This document shows, one piece after another, positions 27,621 through 52,649 of a stretch of DNA of 64,000 nt (its first letter is position 1; each line of letters starts with the position of its first letter). Position numbers and translations under genes: made by a program. The stretch spans positions 8,107,358-8,171,357 of the forward strand of contig JAJEKV010000052.1 in the NCBI GenBank assembly GCA_021234155.1. The letters run 5' to 3'. The DNA is from Isoetes taiwanensis (lineage: Eukaryota; Streptophyta; Lycopodiopsida; Isoetales; Isoetaceae). The notes under the pieces were generated by a model, which worked only from the letters and a program-made list of their open reading frames with translations, did no database searches and was not told the origin of the DNA.

Positions 27621-27648
<28 letters not shown>

Positions 27649-29081: not shown

Positions 29082-31620
29082 TATATATATGTTAATTAAC
29101 TTCCCACTAGATCTACCCCAAAGTAAACCTTACCCAAACTCTAACACTCGCTAGAGCCCGAGAATGTGTCTATCCCTGGCGCTACCTGTGCCCAAGCCAA
29201 TAATCCTAGTTAAAGATAAATAATCAATCGATGACAAGAACATAAACTTGCATATTTAGTTGAGCAAAGAGCTAATCAATTTAAAATGACAAGCCTCAAA
29301 ACCTTCAAGAACCAAGGTAAAACCTACGAGGACCGTGATATATGATCCCAGCCCTCAAGTCTACCTCTAGGCAATGAAAAAAGCCGACTTTAAAAGTAAG
29401 AGAGAGAATAATTCTCTATACAAGTGCTAAAAAATAATCCCAATAAAATCAATGGTGCTAATACAATCATATTTTCTTATTGTACACAATGATCGACCAC
29501 AGATCAAAACACAAAAGCTCAAAAATGCACTTTAGACTAGAAATATATGTCGTATAAGTATCACTTGTAGACATTTACATCCAAAAAGCCGCGGCTTATA
29601 TCTTACAAATAAGGCAGCATTTGATGGGATCCTTATCTCGCTTTTTAAGACTTAAAACTCCTGTACGCCCCTTTGTATTGTTTTAAGCAAAGCAAGATTG
29701 CTACTGCTTTTTCAAAAACGGACTTCAAAACTAGCACAACCTTTTATCTATAGGATAAGGCAAATCCTATCATAATATCTTAAAGACTTATAAGTATAAG
29801 GCAAGAGATACAACTAGATAGACGTCCCGCCTGATAAATTCAAGAGTACACAAGCTTCCTTTGGACCACATATCCTCATTCACATAAAATATAGCTTGTA
29901 GGATCAGTCATCGCTATCTCCAACACAAAAAGACGGGTTCATCATGTTACCTGCAGCCAAATCAATTGCATGTTAGCCTGAAAAGGGTAAAAGCAAAGCA
30001 GCTAGCAGGTAAGCGAAGAAGAACCCAGTTTTTATCCTTTTCTTTTTATGCAAAGAGAGATTTAGGACAAATAATAAACTGAGAATACTTTATAGCTTAA
30101 AGATGCTCAAACAAAGAGCCTTAAGCATTTTCCTAAGCTGTGTAACAATAGGAAAGGCATGATCTTTAAAAAATCATTCTATGCATCATTCAACAGGAAA
30201 GATAATATTATGCTATATGCATCAAAGGGGACTTCTTGTATGAAGAGAATCTGCCCTATACGATGCTGGAGTCTAACCATATAGATATCATAAGCTTGTG
30301 CTCCATAAACTATTCTAAATAAAAGCTTGATCCCTGCACTTCAAAAATAAAAATTGCATGAAGAACCTCATTTGTATCGTCCTCCAAACTGGGATGATCT
30401 GCATCAGCTGCAAGTCCGTTGGTATCCAAACTGTCCTAGACATGCTTATCGTCTCTTTTATTTGCCGTTTTGGCTCAAACATATAGCTGCTCCTATAATG
30501 CACTAACTGTGGCGACACCGATGGTTTGGAAATTTTTCGTAAGGCATACATTTACATCTCCCAAAAATCAACCTCGTTCTACATGATCCGGGTAAGTTCT
30601 TGGTATTCCTTAGATCCTCGTGAGATCTAATCGCTTTCCATGGCTAATACTGTCGTTTCACCCATTAATGATACAAAACCCTCCGCCAAGCTTTAGGGTA
30701 AGGCCACGACCAAATGGTCCAAATATCACCATAATACCCCTTTTTTGACATAATATAATATAATAAAATAAAATAAAAGCCCATTTCATCTAAACCCAAA
30801 GGGCACAAAAATACCATGATGAGCAATCCCTACATCCAAGCATGCGTATCCATGCAAAATATAATGGGCTCTTAAATTCACCAAATATCCAAGGGAAAAG
30901 GCGATCATTTTGAGCTAAAAGCCCATCCTTTTCCAAAAATAAATTCTCTACGGTTCACACCTAATAGAAATGGGAAAAAGTTAAAAAGTAACTTTTTGCA
31001 TGTGGTGCCATAGTCCACGTTCCCCTTTATTTGAAAAGAACAAACCTTTATCTTAGAACCAACCCTTTTTTTTAAAAAAGGAAGTGTTACATAAAGTAAG
31101 AATGTAACAAATCAATCCAATATGCCAAGGTGCTATATTAACTTATCGTAGTATGTCATTACTCTATCAAAGTGAAGGTCCAACCATAGTTCGGTCAGTG
31201 TAACATGGTTCAAAGACCATTTAATCACATCCACAACTTGGTACAATCCTCTAGAAATGTAAGGTCTTACTCCATGCTATCTAATTTAGCACAGCCAGTA
31301 GCGACCTCTGATAATTTAGCACCACCCCTTAAAGACCAAGCCCCAAAGGTCTTGTTCTTAATATATTAGCTATGTGTGCTAGAAAGTCTAAGGGACACAT
31401 GCGAAAATGTATACACTAAAGCAAACATGTTGTAATTTCAACGTGTTCCAAGGTGATTATGGCCTATGACGTTTAGTGTACAGATAAAAGGGCATGTTGA
31501 CACTGCAAGCAAAGTATTTCAAGCAAATTGTCATAAGTACCCTTTGAAAGATAACTTAATTAAGAGGATGGCCTGTCCCTTTACACCATGTTATCTGTGT
31601 AGAATCCAACCAGCAACAAT
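29081..31620. other. AT-rich stretch, mostly featureless
   Basis: No gene recognised. It holds one possible minus-strand copy of the PLE structured RNA near 29935-30026. Short open frames show no motifs. Confidence 0.45.
29935..30026 (-). ncRNA. Possible degenerate copy D of the PLE structured RNA
   Basis: On the minus strand, GGGTTC pairs with GAACCC. Inside it, CGCTTACCTG and GGCTGCAGGTAA form the same inner TTACCTG/CAGGTAA stem as in the PLE copies. The GGC-GCC hairpin and outer stem seen in copies A, B, C and E are not clear here, so this copy is doubtful. Confidence 0.3.
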
Positions 31621-32300: not shown

Positions 32301-33271
32301 TTGTAATTCCTGTGTTTGTTGAACTTGCACGACCAAATATTACTGCACTGTACTTTCTACTGAGGCCAAACCAAAAAAAATCTAGCTTGAAATATTACAC
32401 TAATAAAGAGATAAATCAAAACGAGATGGAATGCATCCTCCACACCCAATACATTAATCTTTGTCCTTAATATAAAAGCATCAAGTGTAATAAAGTGAAA
32501 CCATTTCCATACCATTTACCATTCCTAAAAAATTGTCAACAAGAATTATATGTTTACAACTAGAACAATTTTTTTTGAACGAAATGAGTGGCAAAATTGT
32601 CCAGATTGCAGCAATTTGATCTGGGTTGTTAGCCAAGCAGGGTAATGGGATCTTTATTGGGGTTTCTAGCTCCAAATAATCACCTTGATAATTACCGCTA
32701 GAGAAGCAAAGGTAGTCACGCAATTTCTTATCCGTGATCGCTAACCAAACAAGGTAGGGGGGATCTCTGCTATAGCTATGTTTCTGAATTTGATCCAAGA
32801 AACTCCAAGTAAAAGGGAAAGAAAGAAAGGTTCGACGGTTTAGGATCCCATGGGAGATTTAGTGCTAAAATAAAATTTAAAAATTCAATTACATCCTGTT
32901 AATTAGCGATGTTTTTTAGGGCTAAAAATGGCATCATTTATGCCACCAGCATGCGAGGACCCAAGGCCCGTGGATGTTGTCATGTCAGCAGAGCTTAGGC
33001 CTGATGGATTTTGAGCGGCTGAACCCTGCAAAAATTTGGCAGAATATAAGAGCCCAAAAACATTAGAACATCCCAATTATAGAAGCATTTGTTTACCTGA
33101 TCTAAGTACCGAGAAAATCCTTGCGTGTGACAAACTTCCAGATTGTATGGTCTGGATCGCCAAGGGCCAAAAAATGTGGATGAAGAGGATTGCAAACAGA
33201 AAACTTTTCTTTCAGGAAGGGTTTAATCTGACTGCACACATTAAGTTATGCACTAAATTAAGAAGAATTTA
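32301..33271. other. Stretch without a recognised gene
   Basis: AT-rich. The frames at 32798-32481 (-) and 33036-33287 (+) have no motif. It ends where the 1.14-kb direct repeat begins. Confidence 0.4.
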
Positions 33272-34418
33272 TTACAGGTGGATGTGATGGACCTCGGCCA
33301 TCCAAAAAAATTCTATAATTTTTATGGAAACTCTTCCAAATTTCTACGGAACTAGGAATGGTTTCCATTTCTTGGAGTTCTAACCCAGACTAGGCTAACA
33401 TAATTTGAGCGCTTCAAACATTTATAAGTCTAAGTACGTTATTACGTTACATAAATTCAAAGAACCATGATATTTTATTTACAATGCCACTTAAAAAACC
33501 GATGTCATTTTTACATAGGCATTATTCATGGACTATGGAATTGGTACAAATAATAAAGATTGTCGATGATATTGCTTTTATATCTAAAAGCCTATAAGTT
33601 TTAGAGAAGCATATTTTAAAATATAAGGCTCAATGCCAGATATTGGCAAAATAGCTACAGTATGAACCAAAAACTCAAATATTTTCATTAGCAACATTTA
33701 TATAAAGTTTAATTTAATAGAATTGCTTTAAAATTTTGATAATCAATAATTTCTCTATGTTTGTCAAATGTTCTAAATGACAAGTTTATAACTATTTTTA
33801 TGAAATAAAGATTTAAAAGTTTCACAAATTTTACTTACATAAGTGTTGTAGCATATCTTATATAATAATGTCAAAAACTAAAATAGTAGCATAACAAGAA
33901 CCAATATTAGAATTTTGACAAATACTTTATAAAAGAAAACTAAAAGTTTTCAAATAATACTTTTATAATGCATTATAAGCAATAATTTGAAACTAATAAA
34001 AATGAACTTCAACAATTTTATAATTTCTTATTGTAGGTAACGGCAAGTTTAATACTCAATAAGTTTTTGGACCAAATTTTAAATATATATTTTATATGGA
34101 AGAACTTCTACATTAAATGAATAATTTTTTTTTAAAATAACGTAATACTGTTATAGATAAATAAATAAGTAATTTTAATAGTTTTTAAGTTAAAAATGAT
34201 GTAAATAAGATATTAGCTTTAATAACTGTATATATGTAACTGCAACTACACTAGTTATAATATATATAGTCTTTATTTTTAAGATTTTATTCAAAGATCT
34301 TTTACAAGAAGAAATATGTACGTAAAAATAAGAGGGTGGTTCAGTATAGCACCAAGCATGTAGGTTCTTTGATCAAACGGGCACATTTAATTCTAATATG
34401 TAGTTATATAGTCTGAGG
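33272..34418. repeat. 1.14-kb direct repeat, copy 1
   Basis: Begins TTACAGGTGGATGTGATGG and ends AGTTATATAGTCTGAGG. It is nearly identical to 34681-35814 apart from scattered substitutions and small indels. It is very AT-rich with no coding capacity. The end section (GGTTC...GTCTGAGGCACAA) recurs at 63.8 kb. Confidence 0.9.
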
Positions 34419-34680
34419 CACAAAACAAGATTCTTTTTGAAGCAAATAATGTGTTAGTGGCTGTATGATGAAAATTAGGGCGATGTGCATGAAATTAGAT
34501 GGAGAATTTCGGGAATGTCTAAATACAAATATGACAATCGACTATAACCAGATATTTATGAAAGAGTGTTGAAATAAATGTGGATGTAGTAACAATTGTG
34601 GAAATCATATTGTGCAAAGAGAAATATGATATCAAATTACAGGTGACTATGAAGAGCATATGCAAAAATTTAAAAGTATT
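34419..34680. repeat. 262-bp spacer unit, also present at 52.3 kb
   Basis: From TTTTTGAAGCAAATAATGTG to AAAAGTATTTTAC this matches 52317-52567 at high identity. Its first part also matches the window end (63900-63970), where it directly follows the end of the 1.14-kb unit. So 1.14-kb unit plus spacer is the natural order of a larger repeat. Confidence 0.85.
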
Positions 34681-35814
34681 TTACAGGTGGATGTGATGGA
34701 CCTCGGCCATCCAAAAAAAATCTATAATTTTTATGGAAACTCTTCCAAATTTCTATGGAACTAGGAATGGTTTCCATTTCTTGAAGTTCTAACCCAAACT
34801 AGGCTAAGATAATTTGAGCGCTTCAAACATTTATAAGTCTAAGTACGTTATTACGTTATATAAATTCAAAGAACCATGATATTTTATTTACAATGCCACT
34901 TAAAAAACCGATGTCATTTTTACATAGGCATTATTCATGGACTACGGAATTGGTACAAATAATAAAGACTGTCGATGATATTGCTTTTATATCTAAAAGC
35001 CTATAAGTTTTAGAGAAGCATCTTTTAAAATATAAGGCTCAATGCCAGATATTGGCAAAATAGCTACAATATGAACCAAAAACTCAAATATTTCCATCTT
35101 TTCATTAGCAACATTTATATAAAGTTTAATTTAATAGAATTGCTTTAAAATTTTGATAATCAATAATTTCTCTATGTTTGTCAAATGTTCTAAATGACAA
35201 GTTTATAACTATTTTTATGAAATAAAGATTTAAAAGTTTCACAAATTTTACTTACATAAGTGTTGTAGCATATCTTATATAATAATGTCAAAAACTAAAA
35301 TAACAGCGTAACAAAAATCAATATTAGAATTTTGACAAATACTTTATAAAAGAAAACTAAAAGTTTTCAAATAATACTTTTGTGATGCATTATAAGCAAT
35401 AATTTGAAACTAATAAAATTAACAATTTTATAATTTCTTATTGTATGTAATGGCAAGTTTAATACTCAATAGATTTTTGGACCAAACTATAAATGTAAAG
35501 AACTTCTACATTAAATAAATAAATTTTTTTTTTAATTATGATACTGTTATAGATAAATAAGTAAGTAATTTTAATAGTTTTTAAGTTAAAAATGATGTAA
35601 ATAAGATATTAGCTTTAATCACTGTATATATATAACTGCAACTACACTAGTTATAATATATATAGTCTTTATTTTTAAGATTTTATTCAAAGATCTTTTA
35701 CAAGCAGAAGCATGTACGTAAAAATAGGAGGGTGGTTCAGTATAGCACCAAGCATGCAGGTTCTTTGATCAAACGGACACATTTAATTTTAATATGTAGT
35801 TATATAGTCTAAGG
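34681..35814. repeat. 1.14-kb direct repeat, copy 2
   Basis: Second copy of 33272-34418. After its end the sequence diverges to unrelated DNA (TAGGGATAGGTTC). The arrangement unit-spacer-unit could be a small LTR-type element or a tandem duplication. Clear TG...CA termini and target duplications were not found. Confidence 0.9.
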
Positions 35815-36289: not shown

Positions 36290-37245
36290 CTCTTGTTTGC
36301 TAAAATTAAAGCTTCTTGGGTGATAAATTCAATCTATGACTTAATATGTAACCTGCCCTAAGTTAGAAGATTGATGATTTGTTCGCTTAGACATTACAAA
36401 GTGTTATGAAAATATTCCAATTTGATGGCTGTCATGGGATAGTACAAATCATGAATGAGGTTTGTGATCCGACCTCGAGGAGTCAAAGACTGCTAAAATA
36501 AAGAATTTTAGAAATTATGGTACCATTTCACAAGTAATGGTACACCGTGAGGCTAAATGGAAGAAGATCACACCTAAAGGTGAGAAATGGACACCATCGG
36601 ATCGTGGATTATTCCCGCAGTATTAATAAGGGTTGATTAATAACCGCTACCTCAAAGATGGGATTGGGAATTTGGAAACAAATTAAGGGCATACCCATAG
36701 ATTCCCATGTAGTCCAGCATGGTGTAACCTTATATTTGGCCATGTTGAACTCGTTTATCATTAATCTTGCCATTAACAATAAAATGATGGAGGCAGCAAC
36801 TTCAGAAATACGTATATATGGATGATCTGCCAGTATCAACTCTTAATGAGAGAGATTACCTGGCTTGGTCAATAATGGAATGACAAAGGAGAGCATCTAT
36901 GATCTGACATCCTCATGATTAAAGATCTAAACAGTAATCGCCCTAATGAGGACTCATCTTACCGTAAGGTGAAAGCAAATCTCCCTAAACATGACGATTG
37001 AGGTTTTAAAACAGGGACCAAGTACCACAGGCCATATAGATTCGACAAAAGAGACAAGTTACCCTTCCGCAACTAGATTTTATACACTCTATGGGATGTA
37101 GACTGCATCTTCTAGTATGTAATGTAGTAATGCTCGCCAAGTAATGCCATATATCTATGTGCATAGCAATCCACTCCTTGCCGCTAGTATGACTCTAAAT
37201 TCACCGTCCGTATTTTTATACAGAAAGGGTTTAAAAGAAAAGGAT
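36290..37245 (+). pseudogene. Decayed PLE reverse transcriptase
   Basis: The DNA aligns with the intact RT frame at 46.6-47.6 kb. CTAAAATTAAAGCTTCTTGG precedes motif A, read as ACATTACAAAGTGTTATGAAA (ITKCYEN in the intact copy). Motif B is recognisable near 36690-36740 (GCATACCCATAG, then TGTAGTCCAGCATGGTGTAA). Motif C is near 36810 (ATATGGATGATCTG, the YMDDL block). TTCGACAAAAGAGACAAGTT near 37037 gives FDKRDKL. Large deletions and stops between the blocks make it non-functional. It is followed by the same 3' module as the intact element. Confidence 0.75.
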
Positions 37246-37419
37246 GTCTGAAATCGGGTATTGGCATTCAAAAAACGAATTCGCTCCAATAATGACATTA
37301 CGCATCGCTGAATGAACTAAAAAATACGTGTATTTTTCTTAGATTTCTATATTAGTTTTATAGTCTCTCGGTCAGCTGTCAATGTGAACAAAACCAGGTT
37401 TACCAAAAACAACAGGTGT

Positions 37420-37556: not shown

Positions 37557-40405
37557 CTCGTGAGAACTTGAAGGTTTAATCCGTGACTCCACACAAGCTC
37601 CGTGATACGGTGTTTGGGTTAGAACTTTAACACCTACCCCTTTGGGGAATTATGACATGCATCCCTAAATAACCTAAAACAATTTGACCTGTACTAACAT
37701 ATGGATTTATAAAGACAATTTGGTACCCCTCGTTTAATGTGCTCTATGAAGATTTGGTAAATATGGTGAGGCATATTTACACAAATTTTGATATTAAGGA
37801 AGGTCAAATGACTCATAGACTAACTCATATCTTATATTGGTGGATTGAACACCTTGATTTAGCAAGACCTATAAGATATGTATGAGCAAAGAATTGTTCT
37901 TCGTCTTGTTTCTTAAAAATATCCAGCTCATACATTAACATAGGCTATTATGGCAAGAGAAATGCATAAAGATTCTTACCTACACCAAGGGGCACGTTTA
38001 CATAGTTGACATCTTGGTCTTTAGGGTTTTAGAATACCATCCTATACACTAAATTGCATATTTATTAAGATAATTTTACAAGATTCATAAAATTTAAAGT
38101 TATGCTTAATTTGGGACCTTTAGAACGCTAAAGCCTAAAACTGTGATGGACTATTAAAGATATCATATTTCTTAAGGGTATAGAGATAATGAAAATGTGG
38201 CACAAGTATTGGCTAAGTTTGTTAGATAAGTGGGCTTAATTTATTGCTAACCCTTTTGGACGATTTTTCTACCAAATGCTTCGTGCATTTATATTGGTTA
38301 TAGCCCTGTGACGGTTTTGCTACACCTAAAGAACCCACTACATCGTGACACCTAGTAAGCAAGACCGCCGCATAGCACCTACTTAGGGTTCATATGCTTG
38401 GGACCAGAGAAAACGGCGATGCATGACTACTTCTAACGCGAACACAGCATTTAGCTTACAAAAGCAAACTGACATATGCTTCGTAAGGTGATGCTAGCGC
38501 ATAAAGGTAGGATTTCGAGAGGCCGGGTAATGTGATCATTACAATTTTGCATGCCGTTGGAATTCTACCATTTTTCTTACCTTTTAACTACTAGCCTCCA
38601 TATTCTGCTAAGGATGGAAAAAGTTAAAGGAGGAGGATCTAATCAATGCATTTCGAGGATTTAAACATAGCGTATGATAGTTCTTGGTGCATGGTAGATG
38701 CTTTACAAGCCGCCGTAAAGGCAAGGGCTTCCTGATTGAAAAACAAGCTATTTACTTGTATCTTCCAAATTGCTACAATGACCGAATCAGGGTTGTCTCA
38801 ATATCAAGCCAACTAAGGCCGACATTATAATGATGCTCATGAAAAAAAGGATCGACCGCAAGAATGATGGGGTCGCTTATCAAAAATCTACACCCCCGAA
38901 GGAATGGCCATATGGAAGCAGGGATTGATATTTGCGCAAAGAAAGAAAACCTCGCCAGAAAGCTTCACAGCATTGGGGGCTGCATTGGTTATTCAAGGAA
39001 AGACCAAAAGTGGGTGCAAGCCTCGAGCAAAGGACTGGTACCTTACAAATCCAGCACGTATTTTACGCTTTTGAGGAGGATGACACGCTTTCAATCGCCG
39101 GAATCATGAAGTTTAAATTATTAACTGAAATATGGGAGGGTTAGAAATAGTTAAAGCATTCGTGAAATCGTGATGCTCTTAGTCGTCATTCTTTTATTTT
39201 TGCAAAAGCTACTGATATTTTTTCAAGTAATAATAATAGTGGTCGATGAAATGTTTACTAAAGTGCTGATTTATCTTTAGACAAGGTTTTTATTTTCTTC
39301 GCTAAAGCAAAGTGTTAGTGAGCTTAGGTATTACTGCATCGCTTGTAATATTTTAATTTCTTAAGCAAAGAGGGTACTTGCAGGAACATAGGATCAGATC
39401 ATCGTGCAAGGGACTTTTATGGTAATTCTCAAGGTAAACGCCTCTTGCTGGAGCAAAGAAATGATGTCGATTAATAAACTATATTCTGCATCATATGTTT
39501 TCTCGAGCTTGTCACATGTCTCATACTACACAAGCTTTGATTATCCGTGTATAGTGATGTGTTTGTTGCCTATAGTATCAGATCTGGTATTCGGACAATC
39601 AATAGTTTGTAATAAAGTCGAGTAGGAAGCTTCGCAAGGCTTTTTTCGAAAGTGCTGTAAATTTAAAATGTTATGTGATATGGAGCTTCATTGAGCTAAT
39701 AAGGAAAAAGGCGCTAGTGCTGAAGTGGTTTTTTAACACATCTCATTTACTATTTATCAAGTATGGCAAATTTTCCGTGATTATTAATCGGATTCCTTCA
39801 GAGTATATGGTTGAAGCGGGCAATTAGCCATGAGATTCTCCTTGCTTACCCGCTAGTAGCTTAGCATTCTCTAAGGCTAACTTGCTTTTGTCTCTAATGG
39901 CAGTAACCGATTCTCTTCCCTACCTCCTTTGTATTTTACAAGGCTTGTGAAGAATACTTGTACTGAAAAAGCATTTGGATGATGCAAATGGAGAAAGTGG
40001 GGAAATCTTAGGCCAAACTCAAGTATCTTCTTAAAATATTCGTGTGCTATGTTTCTACTTAGTTTGGTGGCCATTAGTTAAGTAGCCTATCCTTTTAAAA
40101 ACAGCATAATATTTTTACTGTGTTGTCGTTGGAACTCAGATGTACCCAAAAATAATATGTATATACAATATTTGATGTTATTCTCGTCAGACCAGGGACA
40201 TCATGGGCAAACATATCTAACAAGAAAGGTCAGCCTCTTTATCCTTTTTTAATATTGGAATTTCTTTGTTGGATATCAATAGTCTACTTTTTTTAAAAAA
40301 AGCAAATGCATCATTTTAAATAAGTAATTCGATTATTAACCGTATATGATATGCAAAGATTAAATGAATTTAACTATTTCCTCAAAAAAAACAAATAGAG
40401 TTAAC
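37557..40405. other. Stretch without a recognised gene
   Basis: Contains short frames only. A plus frame at 38932-39144 (GLHWLFKERPKVGASLEQRT) may be a retroelement relic but shows no motif I can name. Confidence 0.4.
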
Positions 40406-40690: not shown

Positions 40691-41783
40691 TCATAAGGTT
40701 CTCCCTAATTTATAAAGGACCGATAAGTCTAAAATGTACTCGTATTTTCCCCGGGCCGGGTTTAGATGTCCGACTTGGTCTTTTGGTTAGGTCCGTGTTT
40801 TGTATATATATATATATATATCTATATAAATATATATATATCCAATAGAACTCCATTAGGATCACTCATTGTTATGGGTTGGTTAAAGGGAAAACAAAGG
40901 GCTATTGATAGATGTTTGGACCTCAGACTTTTGATTTGATACGAAAATAAGGCCGTTCACTACTCTATTTATGCATGCTGGATTAATGGTACCGCGGAAG
41001 TTGCTGGTGCAATATTATTTAGCATTTTGTTTTTTGCAGGAGCCTGCATTGGATATGGCTGTTTTTAATATTTGTGTTGTTTTCAAGTAGAGTGTTCGGC
41101 GGTTGGCAACCCATAAGGCTACTTGTGTTTTGCTTATCGAATACTTATTGCAAAAAGTTGTCGCATAATGGCAGCGACAATAAGATGATGGGATTATGTT
41201 TGCCTCTTGGCGCTTTCTTCTGGGCTGGGCAAATAATTTTTTACTTCGTATTGTATTTCCTTACAAATATTTTTTATGAAGGAGAAGTTTTAATACGTTT
41301 GAAGTATAAGCTTTGGAGAAATTTTTGATAATTGATGGACCCTTTTTTAATTTAAAAGCATGGTATGTCATACATTGGTTAGCAAGATTGTATTTGTAAG
41401 GCTTTGATTTTTCGATACACAACATTTCATGTATTTTACTGGATGGTTTCTTACAGATTTTTAGATGTTAGAAAAATGTATGTCATTTTTAAGTTTTAGG
41501 GTTTTGCTTGCTTACCCTAAAAGCAAATACCGAATGGCATCGGATGGCTCACACGCCGCACATGATGACAAATCTACAGGCTGATTGATCGGGTAAGTCC
41601 TTTCGCCAAGAATAGCCGTAGCAAAAGGAAATTAAGGTGAATTTATCTCTTTCTTCTTTTATTTGTCGGATTTATGTTATTCCGTACCTCGGCCGTATGT
41701 TTTGTCCATATATATATCCGCCCTCAAACTCTCTTACAAGATTTTTGGCTATAAGGATCCTCTAAGACGCGTTCGCCTCGCAT

Positions 41784-42125
41784 ATGTTCTCGCGATGCTT
41801 GTTATTTGCTCAACATGGGCAAGCCGTAAGGATCACAAAACAGTGGATTTACTGCAGCCGTGCTCTTGAATTGATAAGGAAGGCTGGTCTTGATCTCAAC
41901 GCATCAGAGCGTAGTTTTTAAAATGGCGCAGCCCACTAAGCTTTTTTTGGAAAGGGTTGTTGAGCGATACCATTTGGCTGGGCCATCTACTGGACTATCT
42001 TTTGTTCCTGCCATTAGGAAGAATCTAGCTCCTAGTGTTAAGAGTTTCTTCACAGCTGTTGGTGAAGGATCAAGTAAAGAAACACCAGGCATTGATGTCA
42101 CACGCATTGCTGATATTGAGATCCC
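41784..42125 (+). pseudogene. PLE ORF1 exon 1, copy A (broken)
   Basis: Homologous to 49039-49398 in repeat B. The readable part is ERVVERYHLAGPSTGLSFVP, then RKNLAPSVKSFF and DVTRIADIEIP. It ends at a GATCCC/GTAAAC donor. Downstream, after a 1.2-kb intron containing the structured RNA, the next exon starts at GAAGCTGAAAG (43351). The first half is frame-broken, while the second half is open in this copy and broken in B. Confidence 0.5.
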
Positions 42126-42282
42126 GTAAACTCGAGGACACAACTCAAGTAGTGAAGATGATTTAATTTAAAAAATCTGGTCATACAGCCCAACCAGGTT
42201 ATTTAAAGGGCTTTTTATAGTGATTTTTTCATGAATTTATATCTATCTTTTGTTTTCTGGTATTTATCCTTAAGAATTTTTT

Positions 42283-42405
42283 GTTGGTGAAGGGCGAAGA
42301 GCCGAGTAAAATAATAGCTTACCTGTCAGCGCTTGTATCTTTACCCAGACTATGGCTAACTGATGCATGGTGTTTGTCAGCAGTAACCTATTTTACTCCT
42401 CCAAC
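42283..42405 (+). ncRNA. Three-way-junction RNA motif, copy A
   Basis: GTTGG pairs with CCAAC. The linker TGAAG, hairpin GGC-GAAGA-GCC and 10-bp stem GAGTAAAATA/TATTTTACTC follow, then CT before the closing strand. The inner TTACCTG strand is intact, but its partner reads GTCAGCAGTAACC instead of GCTGCAGGTAACC, possibly a consensus error. It lies about 155 nt after the exon 1 donor, inside the ORF1 intron. Confidence 0.6.
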
Positions 42406-43350
42406 TTCTTTATGAATTTGTGGATGTAATAGGAGCATACCGCATGATGGAGGTCTACTACCACATGTAGTATATAAATCTCAGAATCTGATCATTGTTA
42501 TTTAGAATTTAAAAGTTGTCTATCTTCAAAATTCTACCGTAAGATACATCCGTACTGTGACCGTTATGTGCTTTTGCTGCATTTATGCCTGGTATATTTG
42601 TCTAAAATAGTGCTTGGAACAGATAATACATTATGTATTGAATAAAGCATTTTATGGCAATATTTATGGCTGCTCCTGTTTTGTCATCTCATCTCTTGTT
42701 GACTTTTTGGGAATGTAATTGCACCATTGCTTTGTCATTTGTGTGCCAATGTATGCTCTTATATGCTCACTTAGTAGGGCTGTTTAAGCATTGTATGCAT
42801 CTGCCTGATTAGATCTGTCTACTTGCATCTTGCTGAACACGTAGATGTATGCAATATCTTGGATCCTATTTCTGGATAAATATGCACTGCCATAAATGAT
42901 GTATGAACATATCTTTCATTGCATCTAAATATTTTTGGAATAATTTGCTATTTAGCCTAAACTCTTGCATGATTCTTTCCCTGATTTAGGGTATCTTACT
43001 TCACTTTATCATATTGGGCAGTGGTTTTGGTCTTTTTGAATAAGATAAGATATGGATATTGATAAGTTTAATGCTTTGGATATGTGGTATTTCTTGATCT
43101 TATTTTTTGGACATTGCTATTATTCTGTTTGGTCCCTAAGGCCCCCCTTCTTTAGGGACTGATAAGATTTTGGAAATCCTTTGGGATTTGCAGGATCAGC
43201 CGGTTCATTCTGGGAATGGATCGGATTCTTATATATTCTATGACTTCAGGACTCTGGTTAAGCCAGAGTGGGCCTTAGGGATCTGCATTATTAAATCTTT
43301 AATCTTCTATATTTGGTTCCATATTCGGATTACTGATCCTTTGATTTCAG

Positions 43351-45017
43351 GAAGCTGAAAGAAACTCTACTGAAGAAGTTGTGGAAATACGAAAAGAAGA
43401 ATTTGTACAAAAAGCTATCACTGATGCTCCCTGCTGGAATGAGGATCTTATTGGATTTGGCTATGGTAACACTATGATATGGCCACCAAACAAGCAGTGC
43501 AACTTTTCCTAGGATGCATTATCAGACCTGAGGTGCACAAATATATAATGAAGAAGGAAGCTTTCCCTGATGATAATGGTATGTCTATGGTCACATTTTT
43601 AGGGATGAACAATATGCTTGATTTGGTATCCAAGGTTAACAAATTGGATGATGATTTAGCCCAATGCATGAAGGTCATTGACCATGTTTATGAAATTCTT
43701 CCCTTGTCCCATTTTAATGCTGAGAACAGTGAAATGCTTGATCTTATTACTTTTCTTAAAGGGGTGGCTGCAGTGCAGATTGCTAATGGTCTTCCTATCA
43801 CTTATCCCCCTATTAGAAAGACAAAGAAAGTGCAGACCAAAAAGAAAAAAGTTGTTGAACCAGTTTTGACCACAAATTGTCTGTTTGATATCAGCAAACT
43901 TTCTGAAAAGGAGCAACGGGAAATGCTGGACCCCGAACCTATTAATGAGATTGAATCTGATGCACAGGTTGTGCATAATGAACTGGATAACTATGAGCTG
44001 AAAAAATTGACTCTGTATAACTGTTATCATTTTCCTATTCTCTCTGCCAGGTTAGCTGAGTTACAAGGGGTTAAGTGTAACCAAGCCTTTTGGGAAACAC
44101 AGAACCTTGGGGTTTTGGCCCCTATCAATGTAAAAACTCTTAGAATGTTATGCAACATTACTGATTCTGAGGTTGAGCAGGCACATAGGGATGCGGATAA
44201 CTTGGTAAAGAGAATTGACAGGATTGATTTGGATGTGCATTTTACATCACAATTTTTTGGTAAAAAATGTGACAGGAATACAGGAATATTTGTTGGGCAA
44301 AAGGGCCATATGGCTAAATCAGATGAAAAGAGAAATGATCTCTACCTCAGAAAACTATGGAGAACTTTCTGTCCTTTTCTGAAATGTGGTTGTGAAAGAG
44401 CTGGTAAAAATGATCCAAATGCTTGTAAAGATCATATGACATGATATGACCATGCGGTCTGGTTTATTATGAACAGTACGGATATTCTATGGCCTGATAA
44501 GTCTTGCACTTACAGATTCTTCATGCTGCACAAGCTCTTAAACTCTAAAGGGATGAGGGCTGGTGCATTGGCTTTCATTGGATACCTTAGGCTAAGGGAT
44601 ATTATGATCAAAATGACATCAAGGTTTGCTGAAGACATATCTGCAGATCTGAAAAATGAGTTTGGCAATACCAAAGCTGCTGGTGTGCTGGAAAAAACAA
44701 TTAAACCCAGAAAATTCCTTATGGACTCACTTGGAAAAGAGGATGATAGGGATTCATACTCTAGGTATCCCAAAAGGAAATAGAAAATTGAAGAAGATTT
44801 TGAGGTAGTGATGCCTCCAAAGTACAAAAAAGTTTGTGCCTCTAGCACTATGGGGTTTTCTGAAAATTCTGGTATTACTGGTATAAGCATTAACAACAAC
44901 AGTGACAGGTCTGTAAACAAGCCTGCAAAGCATGGCTCAGATTTCTTAATGAAGTTCCACCTAATACTCTTAATTTCTGAGTTTGAACATGCTATTTCTT
45001 GGCATACATCTTACTAA
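43351..45017 (+). CDS. PLE ORF1, main exon (unknown function, Cys-rich end)
   Basis: Begins after a TGATTTCAG acceptor with EAERNSTEEVVEIRKEEFVQ. A one-base shift near 43470-43500 moves it into the 321-codon frame 43479-44444 (ATKQAVQLFLGCIIRPEVHK onward). That frame holds a Lys-rich linker (RKTKKVQTKKKKVV) and a Cys-rich stretch FCPFLKCGCERAGKND, ending ACKDHM, that could bind zinc. An in-frame TGA (44442) and TAG (44781) interrupt it, but the same frame continues to 45017 (FFMLHKLLNSKGMRAGALAF; SRFAEDISADLKNEFG). A splice donor for the next intron could not be fixed (candidates near 44881 and 44908). I know no family for it. It may be the N-terminal part of the RT polyprotein, or a separate ORF1. 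The stops may be decay, readthrough or sequence errors. Confidence 0.6.
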
Positions 45018-45545
45018 TATCCTCTATGGATATGAGCCCCTTGTGGCCCTATATTACTGGCTTTTATGCCTTCTAAAAAATATGAAATATTGGTGCTTTG
45101 ATGGCACATGATATCGTTTTGCGTCTATCTTTTATGGATATGAGCCCCTTGTGGCCATCTACTACTGGCTTTTATGCCTTCCAAAAATTAAAAAATTGGT
45201 GCTATGTTTTTCTAATATCCTTTATGGATGCATATATCTGAGCCCCTTGTGGCCATCTATTACAGGCTTTGAAGCCTTCCAAAAAAATATATATAAAGTT
45301 GGTAGTACGGTTGTTTCAGCATCTATCATTTTAATATCCTTTATGGATATGGGTCCCTTGTGGCCTTCTACTAATGGCTTCTATACCTTCCATAATGTAA
45401 AAAGTTGGTGCTTTGATAGTACATGGTATTGTTTAGCATCACTAATGTCTTTTATGGATATGAACCTTTTATGGCATTACTATACTGCCTTTTTTGACTT
45501 CGAAAAAATAATAAAAAGTGGGTCATACCCAAAATTTTGTTCAAA
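45018..45545. repeat. 110-bp minisatellite inside a PLE intron
   Basis: Five imperfect units begin with TATGGATATGAGCCCCTTGTGGCC-like sequence near 45025, 45133, 45224, 45342 and 45453 (spacing 91-118). Each continues with CTGGCTTTTATGCCTTCCAAAAA and TTGGTGCTTTGATGG. The array fills the intron between ORF1 and RT and ends about 70 nt before the TATTTATTACAG acceptor. Confidence 0.85.
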
Positions 45546-45613
45546 TGATTCTTTGATTTGCTTACATACATGTTTTACGGTTTAGTAAGAGTATTTTACT
45601 GTATTTATTACAG

Positions 45614-47695
45614 ATTAAAACAAGGTTGCTCGTCATGAGCTCTGAAGGAAGATATGTTCTGAAAACAGTTAAAGATAAGACTGGTAAAAGGTTCGTACAC
45701 TTTAATTTTTTCTCTAAATGTGTTGAGAAGATCAAGTTTACCCAGGTTTTTAAAGAAGTCATGATTAATTTTATGGGACAGCTGGGAGAGAATTTGTTTG
45801 AAAAAACTACCTTTGGGTGGAAATTTGCTGGCAGCTTAAAAAGCATGTTATATAAAACCAGAAACATTTTTGCACATGATGGTCCAGTACCTTGTCCATG
45901 TTCTGATCCTGATTTACAGAAATTTGTCTGTAAAGACATTGGGCACATTCGTACCACTGATCTAAACTTCGTGCACTGTAAAGCTCTCAGGAATATGCTT
46001 AAAGCAGGCCTTAACCATATCCCAGACAAGCCTTTTAGCTTGATACGATTTCGAAAGGAAATACAGGAAACTACGGATCTTTTTTTCTATGTGCGTAGAT
46101 TTGAGGTTCAGGAAATGGGCAAAAAATTGATTACAGACTGCAAAAATGAAATTGTTAAAAGAGCTTACAGGCTGGCCAAAGAATTTGTGAAAAAGAATCT
46201 GAAGAACAAGAAATTCCAAATTAATGACCCTATGGTGGTTAGCAGTATTAATTGGCTAACTGATAATGTATATGTGGCAGGCATTGATAAGGCCTCTAAC
46301 AATCCATCTTTTATCTGCCCTAAGCATGTCAGGGATGAAGCTTTAAACAGACTTAATAGTGATGACTTTTGCTGCATCAATATACAACCACAGGTTTTGG
46401 TCAACCAGATCAGGATGGATATTCATACCTTTTTGGGAGATAATGGTACAGAGCTAACTGATCTTCCCTATATGTTTGGTATTTTTAAAGCACACAAGGG
46501 CAATTATAGATGGATTACTTGTGCCCATGACACGATTTTTTCTAGCCTGGCATCAGTTATTGCGGCTTGCTTAAACTTGTTTGTGGATATCTGGCCATCC
46601 GTTTGTGAAGAAAAACTTTCCAAGTTTAACTTTTTTCAAAGGACTAAAATTAAAGCCTCATGGATTGTGCAATCCATTTATGATGTGACCTGCAATCTAC
46701 CAAAAGAAGTCAAGCATGTGTTTGTAGCAGATATCACCAAATGTTACGAAAACATTCCTTTGGAAGGAGAGTTAGGCATATGCCAGGTTATTAAGGAGGT
46801 TATTTCTTTGGCCTGGAATCTGCAAAGCAAAAGGCATAAAAAAATTATTCTCTGTTACAAAATTTTGGGTAACGGGCAGGTTATTGCATGTTGGAGAAAT
46901 TCTAAACCTGAAAGTGAGCAATGGACAAGTATTGACCAAGAAGGGTTTGTTAATATGAACCTTTGGCTGTTAATGAACTGTTTTATACAGATGGGTAATA
47001 AAATCTGGAGGCAAGCTAAAGGAATTCCTATGGGCTTTTCTTGTAGTCCAACATGGTGTAATTTGTATCTTGCTTGTTTAGAGTTGAAGTTTATACTCAA
47101 GCTGGTCAGAAAAGGAAAGTTTAAAGAAGCTGCCGCCTTTGCATATACTTTTCGTTACATGGATGACTTGCTCAGTATTAACAATGATTATATCAGAATT
47201 TTTCTTGGTTTGGAACATGATGCGGAATACGCAGACTCCGTTTATGACTTAGAGGTTCTAAAGATTCAAGATGAGACCTGTTATTGGGATAAAGGTTTTG
47301 GAAAGGATAACAAAGGCAGAATGGTAAATTTTCTTAATATGACCATCAAGGTTTTGGACCCTGTTCATGGAATTTTTGAAACATTTCATTACGATAAAAG
47401 GGATAAATTACCCTTTCCCATTTCTAAATATGTGGATGCTAGTGGTTGCAGACCATATTATTGGGCCAAAAATGTGATTATCTCCCAAATCATGCCACAC
47501 CTTTATGTGCATACTAATCCTGTTATGGCAGCTAAGGATCTGCAAAATCTGATGAGCAGCTTTATTGCGAAAGGGTTCGCTGAAAAGGATATACAATACA
47601 CGGTTCTAAATGCACTAAAAAAAGGAGTATTTCCTGGGCTAAACTTTGATACCAGCACTGTTATCAGGATTATCAACTCCAACAGGTACCTCTAG
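45614..47695 (+). CDS. Penelope-like reverse transcriptase
   Basis: An open frame of 689 codons is counted from TTG at 45626; the first in-frame ATG is at 45635. The exon probably begins at 45614 after a TATTTATTACAG acceptor. Visible regions, in residues of that frame: CPC and GHIRTTDL (90-113), seen in related PLE-like proteins; DK motif GIDKASNNPSFICPKH (219-234); RT fingers LPYMFGIFKAHKGNYRW (280-296); motif A VFVADITKCYENIPL (365-379, catalytic D369); motif B GIPMGFSCSPTWCNLYL (466-482); motif C FRYMDDLLSINN (509-520, DD at 513-514); then YDKRDKLPFPI (589-599). All three catalytic aspartates are present, so the enzyme could be active. The frame ends 90 residues after that block with no GIY-YIG domain. 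Its role is to copy element RNA into DNA; PLE RTs are the closest relatives of telomerase RT. Exon-exon joining was not resolved. Confidence 0.85.
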   Translation: MKTRLLVMSSEGRYVLKTVKDKTGKRFVHFNFFSKCVEKIKFTQVFKEVMINFMGQLGENLFEKTTFGWKFAGSLKSMLYKTRNIFAHDGPVPCPCSDPDLQKFVCKDIGHIRTTDLNFVHCKALRNMLKAGLNHIPDKPFSLIRFRKEIQETTDLFFYVRRFEVQEMGKKLITDCKNEIVKRAYRLAKEFVKKNLKNKKFQINDPMVVSSINWLTDNVYVAGIDKASNNPSFICPKHVRDEALNRLNSDDFCCINIQPQVLVNQIRMDIHTFLGDNGTELTDLPYMFGIFKAHKGNYRWITCAHDTIFSSLASVIAACLNLFVDIWPSVCEEKLSKFNFFQRTKIKASWIVQSIYDVTCNLPKEVKHVFVADITKCYENIPLEGELGICQVIKEVISLAWNLQSKRHKKIILCYKILGNGQVIACWRNSKPESEQWTSIDQEGFVNMNLWLLMNCFIQMGNKIWRQAKGIPMGFSCSPTWCNLYLACLELKFILKLVRKGKFKEAAAFAYTFRYMDDLLSINNDYIRIFLGLEHDAEYADSVYDLEVLKIQDETCYWDKGFGKDNKGRMVNFLNMTIKVLDPVHGIFETFHYDKRDKLPFPISKYVDASGCRPYYWAKNVIISQIMPHLYVHTNPVMAAKDLQNLMSSFIAKGFAEKDIQYTVLNALKKGVFPGLNFDTSTVIRIINSNRYL

Positions 47696-47742
47696 TTCTT
47701 CGGAAAAAAGGTTAGTATTATTCTTCCTCTGTTTTATCTTAG

Positions 47743-47835
47743 TAGGTGGGTTGGGTCCTTATGTAGTATAGGGACCCACCTAACCCTATACTACATTTTG
47801 GAACATACGCCACCTTCCGGTAGGAGGCAGGCTAT
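47743..47835 (+). ncRNA. PLE 3'-end module: overlapping stems in pseudoknot order
   Basis: TAGGTGGGT (47743-47751) pairs with ACCCACCTA (47774-47782). ATGTAGTATAGGG (47761-47773) pairs with CCCTATACTACAT (47784-47796). The arms interleave, giving either a partial pseudoknot or two mutually exclusive hairpins. CACCTTCCGGTAGGAGGCAGG follows, then an AT-rich run. It lies 48 nt after the RT stop codon, where an RT-recognition signal would be expected. Confidence 0.6.
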
Positions 47836-49038
47836 TTTTGTATATATATCTATATAAATATATATATATCCAATAGAACTGATTAGATCACCATTGTTAT
47901 GGGTTGGTTAAAGGGAAAACAGTGGCCATTGATAGATGTTTGGACCAGAATTTTGATTTGACATGAAAATATGCTGTTCTGACTACTTATTTATGCATGC
48001 TGGATTAATGGCAATCATGGAAGTTAAGTTGGTGCAATATTATTTAGCATTTTGTTTTATGAGCCCAAAGATTGATATTGTTTTAATATCTAGGCTTGTT
48101 TCTCCTGCTAGAGTTCAGATGGTTACAACCATTAAGGTCACTATGTTTGGCTATATCGAACAATTTATCATAAAAAAGCTATTGTCTAAGTTGGTATGCA
48201 GTAAAATACAGCTTTTAAAGTAGGCCTAAATGAAATATGTGGCAATTTAATGATATATGTTTGTAATGGTCTTGCTGGCACTAAAAAATATAATATCATG
48301 CATGGTTAAGGTTTGTTAAGTTTTGAGGGACTCCAATGTAACTATTTGTTCTTTTTGTTGTTGCCACTAGGTGGCATTCACCTAGTGGACCATACGGAAA
48401 TGTTAAGCTTAGTGGTGCATACGCATCTAAAAATATTTTATAATTGTGTTTGATTAGGTTTGCCTCTTATACAAGTTTGGGGCCAAGTAACACTTTTTAC
48501 TCGTGATTGTATTTCCTTTACAATATTTTATGAAGGAGAAGTTTTTAATACGTTTGAAGTATAAGCTTTGAGAAACTTTTGATAATTGATGGACCCTTTT
48601 TAATTTAAAAGCATGGTATGTCAAGTACATTGGTTAGCAAGATTGTATTTGTAAGGTTTTATCTTTTTCATATACACAACAAGTATCAGTATTTTACTTG
48701 ATTTGTTTCCTGTTACGTATTTTTAGATGTTAGAAAAATGTATGTCATTTTTAAGTTTTAGGGTTTTGCTTGCTTACCCTAAAGCAAACACTGAATGGGC
48801 GCCGGATGGCTCACGTCGCGACATGATGACAACGCAGGGCCGATTTATCAAGAGTCCCTTTCACAAGAATAGCCGTAAGCAAAAAGGGAAATTAAGGTGA
48901 ATGATTCTCTTTTCTTCTTTTTTATTTGGCCGGATTTATGTTATTCCAACCGCTGTAAGCAAAATTGTCCATATATATCCGCCCCTCGAACTCTCTTTTG
49001 CTTCCATTTTCATCCCGCATCGCCGCTTCGCCCCAGAT

Positions 49039-49398
49039 ATGTTCACAGATGCTTGTTGTTTCCATACCAACATGGGCAAGCCGTATGATCACAAAACAGT
49101 GATTTACCGTGAGCCAAAGCTCTTGGAATTGATAAGGAAGGCTTCGGTCTTTGATCTCAACTTACTTCCTCAAGCAGAGCGTAAGCTGGAAATGTGGCCA
49201 GCTGTTTCTCCACTCAAGCTTTTTGGGAAAGGGTTGTTGAGCGACAATACTATCGGGCCATTCCATCGGACTATCTTTTGTTCCCCATTAGGAAGAATCT
49301 AGCTCCTAGTGTTAAGTATTTCTTCTACGCCTGTTGGTGAAGGATCAAGTAAAGAAACACTGCATTGATGTCACACGATACTATATTGAGATCCCAAA
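49039..49398 (+). CDS. PLE ORF1 exon 1, copy B
   Basis: Starts at ATG 49039 (MFTDACCFHTNMGKPYDHKT). It continues as REPKLLELIRKASVFDLNLL and QAERKLEMWPAVSPLKLFG. A shift near 49230 moves it to the frame RKNLAPSVKYFF. It ends at an AAA/GTAAAC donor at 49398/49399. The first part is the best-preserved version in the window; the same exon in copy C shares MG, EP and LIRK. No domain is recognised. In this truncated unit the rest of ORF1 is missing. Confidence 0.5.
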
Positions 49399-49561
49399 GT
49401 AAACCGAGGACACAAATCCCGCTAGTGAAGATGATGTGTCAATTTAAAAATCGGGCCATACGTTCCCCAACCAAAAGTTATTTAAAGGGCTTTTTATAGT
49501 GATTTTTTCATGAATTTATATCTATCTTTTGTTTTCTGGTATTTATCCTTAAGAATTTTTT

Positions 49562-49682
49562 GTTGGTGAAGGGCGAAGAGCCGAGTAAAATAATAGCTTA
49601 CTCCGTCATTGTATCTTTTACCTGCATCATGTGTTTAACTGATGCATGGTTTGCTGCAGGTAACCTATTTTACTCCTCCAAC
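49562..49682 (+). ncRNA. Three-way-junction RNA motif, copy B
   Basis: Best-preserved copy. GTTGG/CCAAC is the outer stem, followed by TGAAG and GGC-GAAGA-GCC. The long stem is GAGTAAAATA/TATTTTACTC. Inside are AGCTTAC and GCTGCAGGTAACC, and an apical hairpin TGCATCA/TGATGCA (49624-49645). CT separates the long stem from the closing strand. It lies about 165 nt downstream of the exon 1 donor. Confidence 0.65.
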
Positions 49683-50534
49683 TTCTTTATGAATTTGTGG
49701 ATGTAATAGGAGCATACCGCATGATGGAGGTCTACTACCACATGTAGTATATAAATCTCAGAATCTGATCATTGTTATTTAGAATTTAAAAGTTGTCTAT
49801 CTTCAAAATTCTACCGGTAAGATATCTGGTACCTTTCAGACTGGTTATGCAGGCTTTTGCTGCATTTATGCCTGGTATATTTGTCTAAAATAGTGCTTGG
49901 AACAGATAATACATTATGTATTGAATAAAGCATTTTATGGCAATATTTATGGCTGCTCCTGTTTTGTCATCTCATCTCTTGTTGACTTTTTGGGAATGTA
50001 ATTGCACCATTGCTTTGTCATTTGTGTGCCAATGTATGCTCTTATATGCTCACTTAGTAGGGCTGTTTAAGCATTGTATATTCCTTTATGTGGCTTTAGG
50101 CATCTGCCTGATTAGATCTGTCTACTTGCATCTTGCTGAACACGTAGATGTATGCAATATCTTGGATCCTATTTCTGGATAAATATGCACTGCCATAAAT
50201 GATGTATGAACATATCTTTCATTGCATCTAAATATTTTTGGAATAATTTGCTATTTAGCCTAAACTCTTGCATGATTCTTTCCCTGATTTAGGGTATCTT
50301 ACTTCACTTTATCATATTGGGCAGTGGTTTTGGTCTTTTTGAATAAGATAAGATATGGATATTGATAAGTTTAATGCTTTGGATATGTGGTATTTCTTGA
50401 TCTTATTTTTTGGACATTGCTATTATTCTGTTTGGTCCCTAAGGCCCCCCTTCTTTAGGGACTGATAAGATTTTGGAAATCCTTTGGGATTTGCAGGATC
50501 GGCCGGTTCATTCTGGGAATGGATCGGATTCTTA

Positions 50535-51390
50535 TATATATATATATATACAAGTGTTTGTAATATGAGGGACTGCATAAAGCTCGAAGATCCTATGAAG
50601 ATTCTCCTAGATTCTATGAAGATTCTCTTAGATTCTCTAAAATTCCATCAAGATTCTCAAAACTTTTAGGAAGATTCCCCTAGATTCCCAAAGATTCTTA
50701 ATGCTCCATAAAGATTCCCCTAGATTCTTAAGATTCTATGGAGATTCCCCTAGATTTTATTAAGATTCCCAAGGATTCTCTAAAGATTTTCCTAGATTCC
50801 AAAAGAATACACCAAGATTCCTCTATATTCTCCAAGATTCTATCAAGATTCTCCTAGATTCTCTGAGATTTCATTAAGATTCCCATAGCTTCTTAAAGAT
50901 TTTCTGAAGATTCCTTTAGATTCTCCTAGATTCCCAAAGATCCATTTGAGACTCCCCTAAGATTCTCTTAAAGATTCTACTTAGATTTTAAAAAGAATAC
51001 CCCAAGATTCCTCTACTCCTCCAAGAGTCTATCAAGATTCTCCTAGACTTTTCTAGATTCTCTAAGATTCCAATAAGATTCCTTTAGGTTTTAAAGATTT
51101 TATCAAGATCCCCCTAGATTCCCAAAGAAGCTGAGATTTCTATAGATTCTCTGAGATTCCTCTAGTTCCAATAGATTCTACTAAGATTCCCCTAGACTCC
51201 CAAGATTACATCAATTTTCCTAGGTTCTTAAAGATTTTATCAAGATTCCATTAGATTCCCTTACATTCTCAAAAGATGCTCTCTTTGAGATTATCATAGA
51301 TTCCTTTCTAAGGTTCTCATGATATTCCTCCTCCTCGACTTCTAAGATCCTATAAAGATTATACTAAGATTCCCCAACTTGCCATAGACT
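50535..51390. repeat. (TA)n end and degenerate GATTC-rich array
   Basis: After a short TA run and CAAGTGTTTGTAATATGAGG comes about 800 bp of AGATTCYCCTAGATTCT-type words, spaced roughly 10-20 bases and without a strict period. It is the same kind of array as 27.83-28.50 kb, which also follows a PLE repeat end. Confidence 0.8.
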
Positions 51391-52316
51391 AAAAATCGCA
51401 TTATTAATTCCAAAAAAATTCTATTGCTCGGACCATGTTGGTCTAACCTAACAAAATAGTGTCAGCACCACTATTGGAAAGCTCTCGACGAGAGGAATCC
51501 AAGGCGTGAGTCCCACCTTCATCCGAATTTCACCGCTAGTTACTGCGGTTAGCGCAATTAAACAAAAAGAAGCTTCCTAGAATGTCCACTAATAAATGCT
51601 TTGCCACCCCATTACTTCTTTTTATTAATGAAAGTGTTTCACCTCACCTCCTTTTAAAAAAAACTAATTTAATATTAAAGAGTTAATGGCTAGGATTTAT
51701 GCTCACCTTTGATCCAATGGTTAAGAGACCGCTATACCAAATTCACTTTTGGCATCTTCCTTGCACTTTCCCATAAAAAATCATGGGCTGTGGATTTCGC
51801 TTCTTCCCTTTGATCCAACGGGTTCACTGTGGATAGTGTATGCCCCCATGTATGACTCATGTATGCCCCCATCAAAATCCAAGGGCTTGCTCACTTTACC
51901 CCCTCAACACCAACTTTATCCAAGGGCTAAGATCAAAAAATCATATCCGATATGCCATTTGTAACTACCCCCATGAGTTTCTATATACATATTAAGATAT
52001 ATATATTTTTTGTTTCCACGTGATTTGAATTTGAAATCACAGAGACGCCGCTTTGGCGTGACGCCGCCTTTTTCGCGACGCGAAATGTATAAGGTTTCGC
52101 TGCATCGCAACGCCCCAAAAAAAAAAAAAAAAAAAAAAGAAAAAAATCTCGCGCACTCCAGTTTTTACCGTTCGCTGCGACAAGCTTTTTATCGTTTATG
52201 TGATGTCATGCATCTTTTAATGCTAAATAATGATTTTTGACTTTTATAGGTCAGGAATTTGAATTTTGGTGTAATGCATGTGAACTCCTATCCCCCGTCT
52301 AAGGCATAAAAGTACC
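51391..52316. other. Stretch without a recognised gene
   Basis: Contains GACGCCGCTTTGGCGTGACG (near 52044) with short palindromic GACGC/GCGTC words, and an A-tract of about 20 bases at 52118-52138. No gene is seen. Confidence 0.4.
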
Positions 52317-52567
52317 TCTTTTTGAAGCAAATAATGTGTTAGTGGCTGTATGATGAAATTAGGGCGATGCGCATGAAATTAGATGGAGAATTTCGGGAAT
52401 GTCTAAATGCATATATGACGATCGACTACAACCAGATATTTATAAAAGAGTGTTGAAATAAATGTGGATGTAGTAACAATTGTGGAAATCATATTGTGCA
52501 AAGAGGAATATGATATCAAATTACAGGTGACTATGAAGAGCACATGCAAAAATTCAAAAGTATTTTA
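52317..52567. repeat. Solo copy of the 262-bp unit
   Basis: Matches 34425-34680 with few differences, without the 1.14-kb partner. It starts TTTTTGAAGCAAATAATG and ends AAAAGTATTTTAC. Confidence 0.85.
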
Positions 52568-52649
52568 CTCTACTAAAGTACACCCATATACATCAAAATA
52601 TATCATAACACATGAACAACAAAAAACTAGATGAGGTTAAGCCAAACCA

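Follow-up and report, generated by a model that had tools for sequence, protein, structure and literature searches.

The 64-kb stretch of Isoetes taiwanensis DNA analyzed here (the window; assembly GCA_021234155.1, the single genome to which all counts below refer) carries a ~125-nt structured RNA, encoded in sense orientation within Penelope-like elements (PLEs). One such element, bordered on each side by TA repeats, extends from 40805 to approximately 50539; it comprises an incomplete unit upstream and one complete unit, with a period of 7.28 kb. Self-alignment showed two direct pseudo-long terminal repeats (pLTRs) in partial tandem arrangement on the plus strand, one at 40805–43236 (the partial upstream unit, with a first coding exon, the fold, and the element's 3′ terminal segment) and the other at 47833–50539; as the fold lies in both, it occurs once per tandem unit. 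A plus-strand frame at 45557–47695 matches the reverse transcriptase (RT) domain RVT_1, and its protein (P0001, starting at 45626) has 128 relatives at E ≤ 1e-3, including Ceratodon proteins and Selaginella proteins with 29%–34% RT identity, in keeping with a Penelope-like RT. Remote relatives carry GIY-YIG, which is the endonuclease domain of PLEs (PF01541; for example, P0090, E 7.1e-22), and eight plus-strand frames of the window copy across 43345–48220 yielded RVT_1 only at E ≤ 1 (the endonuclease scan covered this one copy and, within the pLTRs, exon 1 products only). By its RT, the relatives of that RT, and its pLTRs, the carrier is thus predicted to be what the initial annotation proposed, a PLE, with no endonuclease detected in the copy tested. 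PLEs lacking the endonuclease, EN(-), have been described in Selaginella, Pinus, and Picea (PMC9033089), and the Isoetes element resembles them in its RT without endonuclease and in the Selaginella proteins among its relatives, whereas a conserved RNA fold is not mentioned in the excerpts of that account.

The fold in the window is real and much more common than first reported. All four copies listed in the initial annotation are present with the stems described there, but four was an undercount: a covariance model (R1), the check proposed in that annotation, found these and two further copies (its E-values are rough). Two family A copies belong to the element above, namely 42283–42405 (+) in the upstream pLTR (113.5 bits, E 9.7e-33) and 49562–49682 (+) in the downstream pLTR (91.4 bits, E 6.5e-26). 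The copy at 26551–26668 (+), which represents a family A subfamily, lies in a separate, apparently partial element (130.8 bits, E 4.5e-38) and is itself a member of the R1 training set (L041), and a family B copy lies at 11780–11893 (−), where the stem P3a reads AAGAATGTTTG/CAAACATTCTT (89.1 bits, E 3.3e-25). Those missed at first are a family C copy at 29923–30051 (−; 64.3 bits, E 1.6e-17) and a damaged or old copy at 39804–39929 (+; 25.7 bits, E 1.2e-5), ~2.5 kb 3′ of an RT fragment; one more row, the seventh, has E 0.072 and reflects the 26.5-kb copy read in antisense. The folding stability of each of 12 sequences was 2.5 to 4.6 standard deviations above that of shuffles.

For 32 copies aligned with MAFFT (A2), RNAalifold gave a single structure, comprising an outer stem (P1), a hairpin GGC-GANNA-GCC (P2), a stem before the inner hairpin (P3a), and the inner hairpin itself, which has three helices: UUACCUG/CAGGUAA (P3b), one that covaries (P3c), and UUA-C-CC/GG-C-UAA at the apex (P4). 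The inner hairpin was recovered again from A3, a further set made up of 19 inner cores. In the 42283 copy, P1 pairs 42283–42287 with 42401–42405, P2 occupies 42293–42303, P3a pairs 42304–42313 with 42389–42398, and the inner hairpin spans 42317–42388, with an error-like patch at 42323–42383. Across 41238–43236 and 48494–50539 the two pLTRs consist of identical blocks of 125–300 nt separated by short, dense patches of difference, of which 42323–42383 is one; these patches, which distinguish the 42283 and 49562 copies, look like long-read consensus error and not mutation.

Selection on an RNA fold, as suggested in the initial annotation, is borne out by covariation. A2 holds 24 of the 48 real family A rows (50 minus two false ones) and eight of the 28 family B rows; damaged and near-identical copies, including those at 42283, 49562, and 11893 in the window, were left out and the 26.5-kb copy was included. 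Because the expressions used to gather rows require the closing letters as well as GGTRAAGG and GTAACC, with one or two mismatches allowed, the invariance of these letters is partly by construction. Paired combinations fill 96.9% of the cells in A2, falling to 33%–42% when the partner is slid. Both sides have changed in 17 of 38 pairs (shuffled mean 13.4) and in 156 cells (46 in shuffles), and none of 500 shuffles reached either value; the count of pair types was not above shuffles (328/500). At single positions of P3a, A-U, U-A, and G-C pairs all occur. In A3, the number of paired cells, the number of both-side cells, and the covariation score exceeded all 500 shuffles, while pairs with changes on both sides numbered six, which is not above shuffles (192/500), as was likewise true of pair types (148/500); in helix 1 of this set four pairs show such changes, among them pair 17–59, which is unpaired in 14 of the 19 sequences. 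Kinship of the copies inflates significance based on shuffling; the sliding test and A3 are important for this reason. G-U cells outnumbered A-C cells by 79:8 in A2 and 23:0 in A3, and the sense RNA is therefore the selected molecule. An alignment-free swap of P3a arms gave 7.2 of 10 pairs on average against 8.9 for a copy's own arms, but with 52 of 228 swaps reaching nine pairs it discriminates poorly, arms and bulges being common to related families.

Genome-wide, the strict core GCTTACCTG-N38-66-GCAGGTAAC occurs at 2,663 places and its reversed control at none. The fold itself must occur at least this often, as damaged copies, including the 42283 and 49562 copies in the window, fail the strict pattern. 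Listings of genomic matches show three families, A, B, and C, that differ in their outer parts, with at least 40 rows in each of two family A listings, at least 40 for family B, and at least 43 for family C. Family C, known from five sequences (the window copy and loci L112–L115, which R1 matches at E 1.5e-13 to 5.3e-17), has the same inner hairpin and a longer P1 but neither the GGTRAAG junction nor a GGC/GCC hairpin, although L115, when folded alone, did not adopt the family C shape. The "core that stays fixed" of the initial annotation therefore holds for families A and B, where the junction letters are nearly invariant (partly owing to how rows were gathered), and fails for the five family C sequences, in which hairpin and junction are absent. 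With the junction missing from these sequences, it is the variable part and the inner hairpin the common part: the three-way junction, taken in the initial annotation for an essential core, is not universal, and the common core is a long hairpin.

The inner helix UUACCUG/CAGGUAA is constrained in its letters and not in pairing alone. No compensated change was found in P3b in A2, partly by construction since GTAACC is part of the gathering expressions, and A3 is uninformative on this helix because its pattern fixes it. Pattern counts over the genome found both letters of the middle C-G pair changed at four places, compared with 2,663 strict cores, and compensated variants of that pair in the pattern number at most four, because mispaired combinations were also allowed. 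A base other than C after GUAA occurs at 52 places versus 2,663, and the resulting C·C mismatch seems to be wanted, as a G after GUAA would both lengthen the helix and improve a splice donor. The letters that vary least in A2 sit inside Watson-Crick helices.

The fold is also a shared island among otherwise dissimilar sequences. Locus L101, a family B stretch of 4.8 kb, has the fold at positions 119 and 4563, giving a tandem unit of 4.4 kb, contains no open reading frame (ORF) over 113 amino acids, and has no RT match better than E 0.74. Compared with the window element, the fold is the sole common sequence of this one family B unit at E ≤ 1. The unit may be a non-autonomous element of the retrozyme type. 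Pairwise comparison of 19 representatives gave alignments spanning the fold at E ≤ 1e-3 in 140 of 171 cases; measured from the GGTRAAGG anchor, their edges have medians of −4 and +121. Another 44 alignments fall outside the fold, many of them in the exon 1 block of family A loci at about −470 to −310. A genome search returned 65 RT matches among 4,683 candidates, and 16 of the best 30 RT places have a listed family A fold (67 places) within 6 kb on either strand. On contigs C1–C119, for which the fold listing is complete, all five RT places have a same-strand fold within 4.2 kb, four of these found by the strict pattern and one in a family A listing. Searches of viral contigs returned neither copies of the fold nor relatives of the RT. 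Five matches to the fold in bacteria were set aside as looking, by eye, like chance; three of them have weak R1 matches, the best at E 0.01.

Upstream of the fold, coding exon 1 (MGKPEG...NQ) lies at 41815–42197 (+) with a donor GT at 42198; its frame is broken in this copy and open in L002 (97% identical across a 201-nt query). The exon product, 104–146 amino acids long, is conserved upstream of the fold in many loci, and a Pfam scan of two such products gave no significant match. The motif AAYCAG|GT is present in 25 of 30 family A loci (missing in w49, L024, L028, L037, and L039), and the exon is open up to it in 31 of 102 oriented sequences, counted with a script that made this motif a condition; the 102 include about 30 from family B, and several loci represent a single place twice. 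Frames diverge past the donor CAG|GT, and the fold begins ~65–570 nt downstream of it. The intronic position claimed in the initial annotation thus agrees with a conserved exon end, and the fold appears intronic with support at the 5′ end of the intron only, as the following exon was not identified. Three candidate junctions were rejected or found unsupported: a coding exon starting at GCAG|GTAACC, rejected because the frame is not conserved over the loci listed; a second coding exon at the pLTR 3′ end (TTTGCAG|GATCAG), unsupported because its halves are in different frames in some other families; and the GGTRAAG junction as a 5′ splice site, rejected because the five family C sequences have no GU at that point and exon 1 already ends in a conserved donor. 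Searches with family A patterns returned no lariat-derived copies in the genome and, with one mismatch allowed, a single match for a spliced junction in which the intron was still present.

The absence of hammerhead motifs noted in the initial annotation was upheld by scans with Rfam 15 (4,227 models), which gave no match at gathering score over the 64-kb window, no hammerhead or other Rfam ribozyme at E ≤ 1 in 40700–50700 or in loci L101, L031, L112, and L114, and none up to E 10 in 42200–42500. A hammerhead or other known RNA is thus unsupported, the weak matches being to unrelated families. No such RNA is described in the titles and abstract openings of the papers listed on PLEs (with ribozymes, introns, pLTRs, and telomeres), Isoetes, Selaginella, and covariation, and the fold would be a new RNA family. 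Hammerhead ribozymes occur in the pLTRs of PLEs and Terminons and in their non-autonomous relatives (PMC7761336, PMC11167929). Like them, the Isoetes fold is a structured RNA of the pLTR, present once per tandem unit and also in a non-coding relative; unlike them, it has no hammerhead match, a different junction, and its most conserved letters in helices, and it sits in plant elements without a detected endonuclease.

We tentatively favor, among the explanations considered, a cis-acting recognition element of the retrotransposition machinery that would mark unspliced genomic RNA. A protein, most simply the RT or a partner, may bind the inner hairpin with its UUACCUG/CAGGUAA and UUACC/GGCUAA motifs on unspliced RNA, which would then be taken as template. 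Of the two roles that the initial annotation put forward, RT binding would be the better fit. Since the fold lies in an apparent intron, splicing would remove it from the mRNA, restrict copying to full-length genomic RNA, and so account for the ability of PLEs to keep introns. That a non-coding unit keeps just the fold, together with letters constrained within helices, points to recognition by protein in trans; family B (one unit examined, without a long ORF), and perhaps family C, might accordingly be mobilized by way of this fold. A scaffold role would fall to the outer stem together with the GGC hairpin and its GANNA loop, in place of which family C would have its longer outer stem. The packaging signal of retroviruses, downstream of the splice donor, is likewise a structured RNA confined to unspliced genomic RNA; that element class is unrelated, and only the proposed logic is shared. 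The Penelope-like RT of Anolis Poseidon requires a stretch of its own RNA in vitro and initiates inside it (PMC11167929), and recognition of the element's own RNA with internal initiation is what we propose for Isoetes. There, by contrast, the fold covaries across many families, and its place is upstream, within an apparent intron.

Several points weigh against recognition of the unspliced RNA. The RNA required in Anolis, the source of the single PLE studied in vitro, is at the start of the ORF and not in an intron (PMC11167929), and the antisense template preferred in an account of Penelope elements that copied intron-containing genes, which also allows for unspliced sense RNA, would need no mark on the sense strand (PMC3846280). 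No exon following the intron was found among the loci compared, and 14 of the best 30 RT places have no fold among the family A matches listed. Family C amounts to five sequences, and the coding content of family B is that of one unit. Finally, the inner motifs can also be read as a branch point and an acceptor, which recognition by a protein does not need.

This last point opens onto the main rival, in which the fold hides two plant-like consensus words ~20 nt apart, CUAAY as the branch site and GCAG|GU as the acceptor. Opening of the fold would permit splicing of the exon 1 intron and so set the ratio of mRNA to unspliced template; we regard both the hiding of the signals and this control of splicing as possible but rather unlikely. 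CUAAY is present in 23 of 23 typed cores, the spacing from branch to AG is 19–22 nt in 21 of them (the two outlying values, 52 and 53, reflect the search expression matching an earlier word), a conserved donor CAG|GT lies upstream, and UUACCUG is complementary to CAGGUAA. Family B, however, keeps CUAAY and GCAG although no long ORF is present in the single unit examined, the frame after GCAG is not conserved, the base after GUAA is C instead of G, and the family A patterns matched no spliced-junction copy in the genome beyond the intron-containing one. Moreover, the base after CUAA pairs with the base before UUACC in 13 of 19 A3 rows, so that the pyrimidine bias at this position can be pairing. 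The same words would allow CAG|GUAAC with the branch site to act as a coincident acceptor and donor in each unit, from which the spliceosome, joining the sites of adjacent units, would make exact unit-length circles once the hairpin opens; back-splicing would then be scarless, the circles would be rolling templates, and the spliceosome would replace the hammerhead of animal PLEs. With C after GUAA at 2,663 places and another base at 52, the donor role is weakened, and we hold these circles to be very improbable.

Less likely than masked splice signals is a self-cleaving ribozyme that would cut the tandem transcript to unit length in place of the animal hammerhead, an idea raised in the initial annotation for which no positive evidence emerged beyond its place in the element, and which we consider doubtful. 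The fold is compact, with a pentaloop in P2 that we take to be GNRA-like, and is kept in the non-coding tandem unit of L101. Its site in the pLTR, once per unit, is that of the PLE hammerheads (PMC11167929, PMC7761336). Yet no Rfam ribozyme was matched at gathering score in the window or at E ≤ 1 in 40700–50700 and the four other loci scanned, and the most conserved positions are within Watson-Crick helices. As family C departs from the others in junction and hairpin, the families observed have few unpaired letters in common beyond the C·C mismatches. The covarying stems tell against a signal at the level of DNA or for a host protein, in which the letters would be a protein site and the pairing a by-product of inverted repeats: the inner helix is indeed constrained in sequence and contains inverted motifs, but the neighboring stems change on both sides and G-U is tolerated on one strand, leaving this the most remote of the readings weighed and one already disfavored.

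How PLEs choose their template RNA and keep introns is still debated (PMC11167929, PMC3846280). Thousands of natural copies, a letter-constrained helix beside covarying stems, and a non-coding user of the same fold provide a ready set of variants.

Other features of the window include an ORF of 321 amino acids without a Pfam match at 43479–44444 (+), followed before the RT by five repeats of ~108 bp at 45018–45516, and divergent RT fragments of the same kind at 36299–37281 (+), found by tblastn. The element's 3′ terminal segment at 50433–50550 (+) recurs at 27507–27627. Together with the fold it is all that the 26.5-kb copy shares with the window element at E ≤ 1e-3, and it is, besides the fold, the sole stretch common to the 42–50-kb element and the 20–40-kb region at the same threshold. 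Both occurrences end at TA repeats, and the segment is, besides the fold, another candidate for a cis signal. Several family A and B loci have, ~50 nt 3′ of the fold, a loose motif resembling TCTACNAC (for example, at 42453–42465), noted by eye only. A direct repeat of 1.41 kb is present at 33247–34418 and 34659–35814 (93% identity), and a further copy of part of it, 34411–34684, recurs at 52297–52568 (94%).
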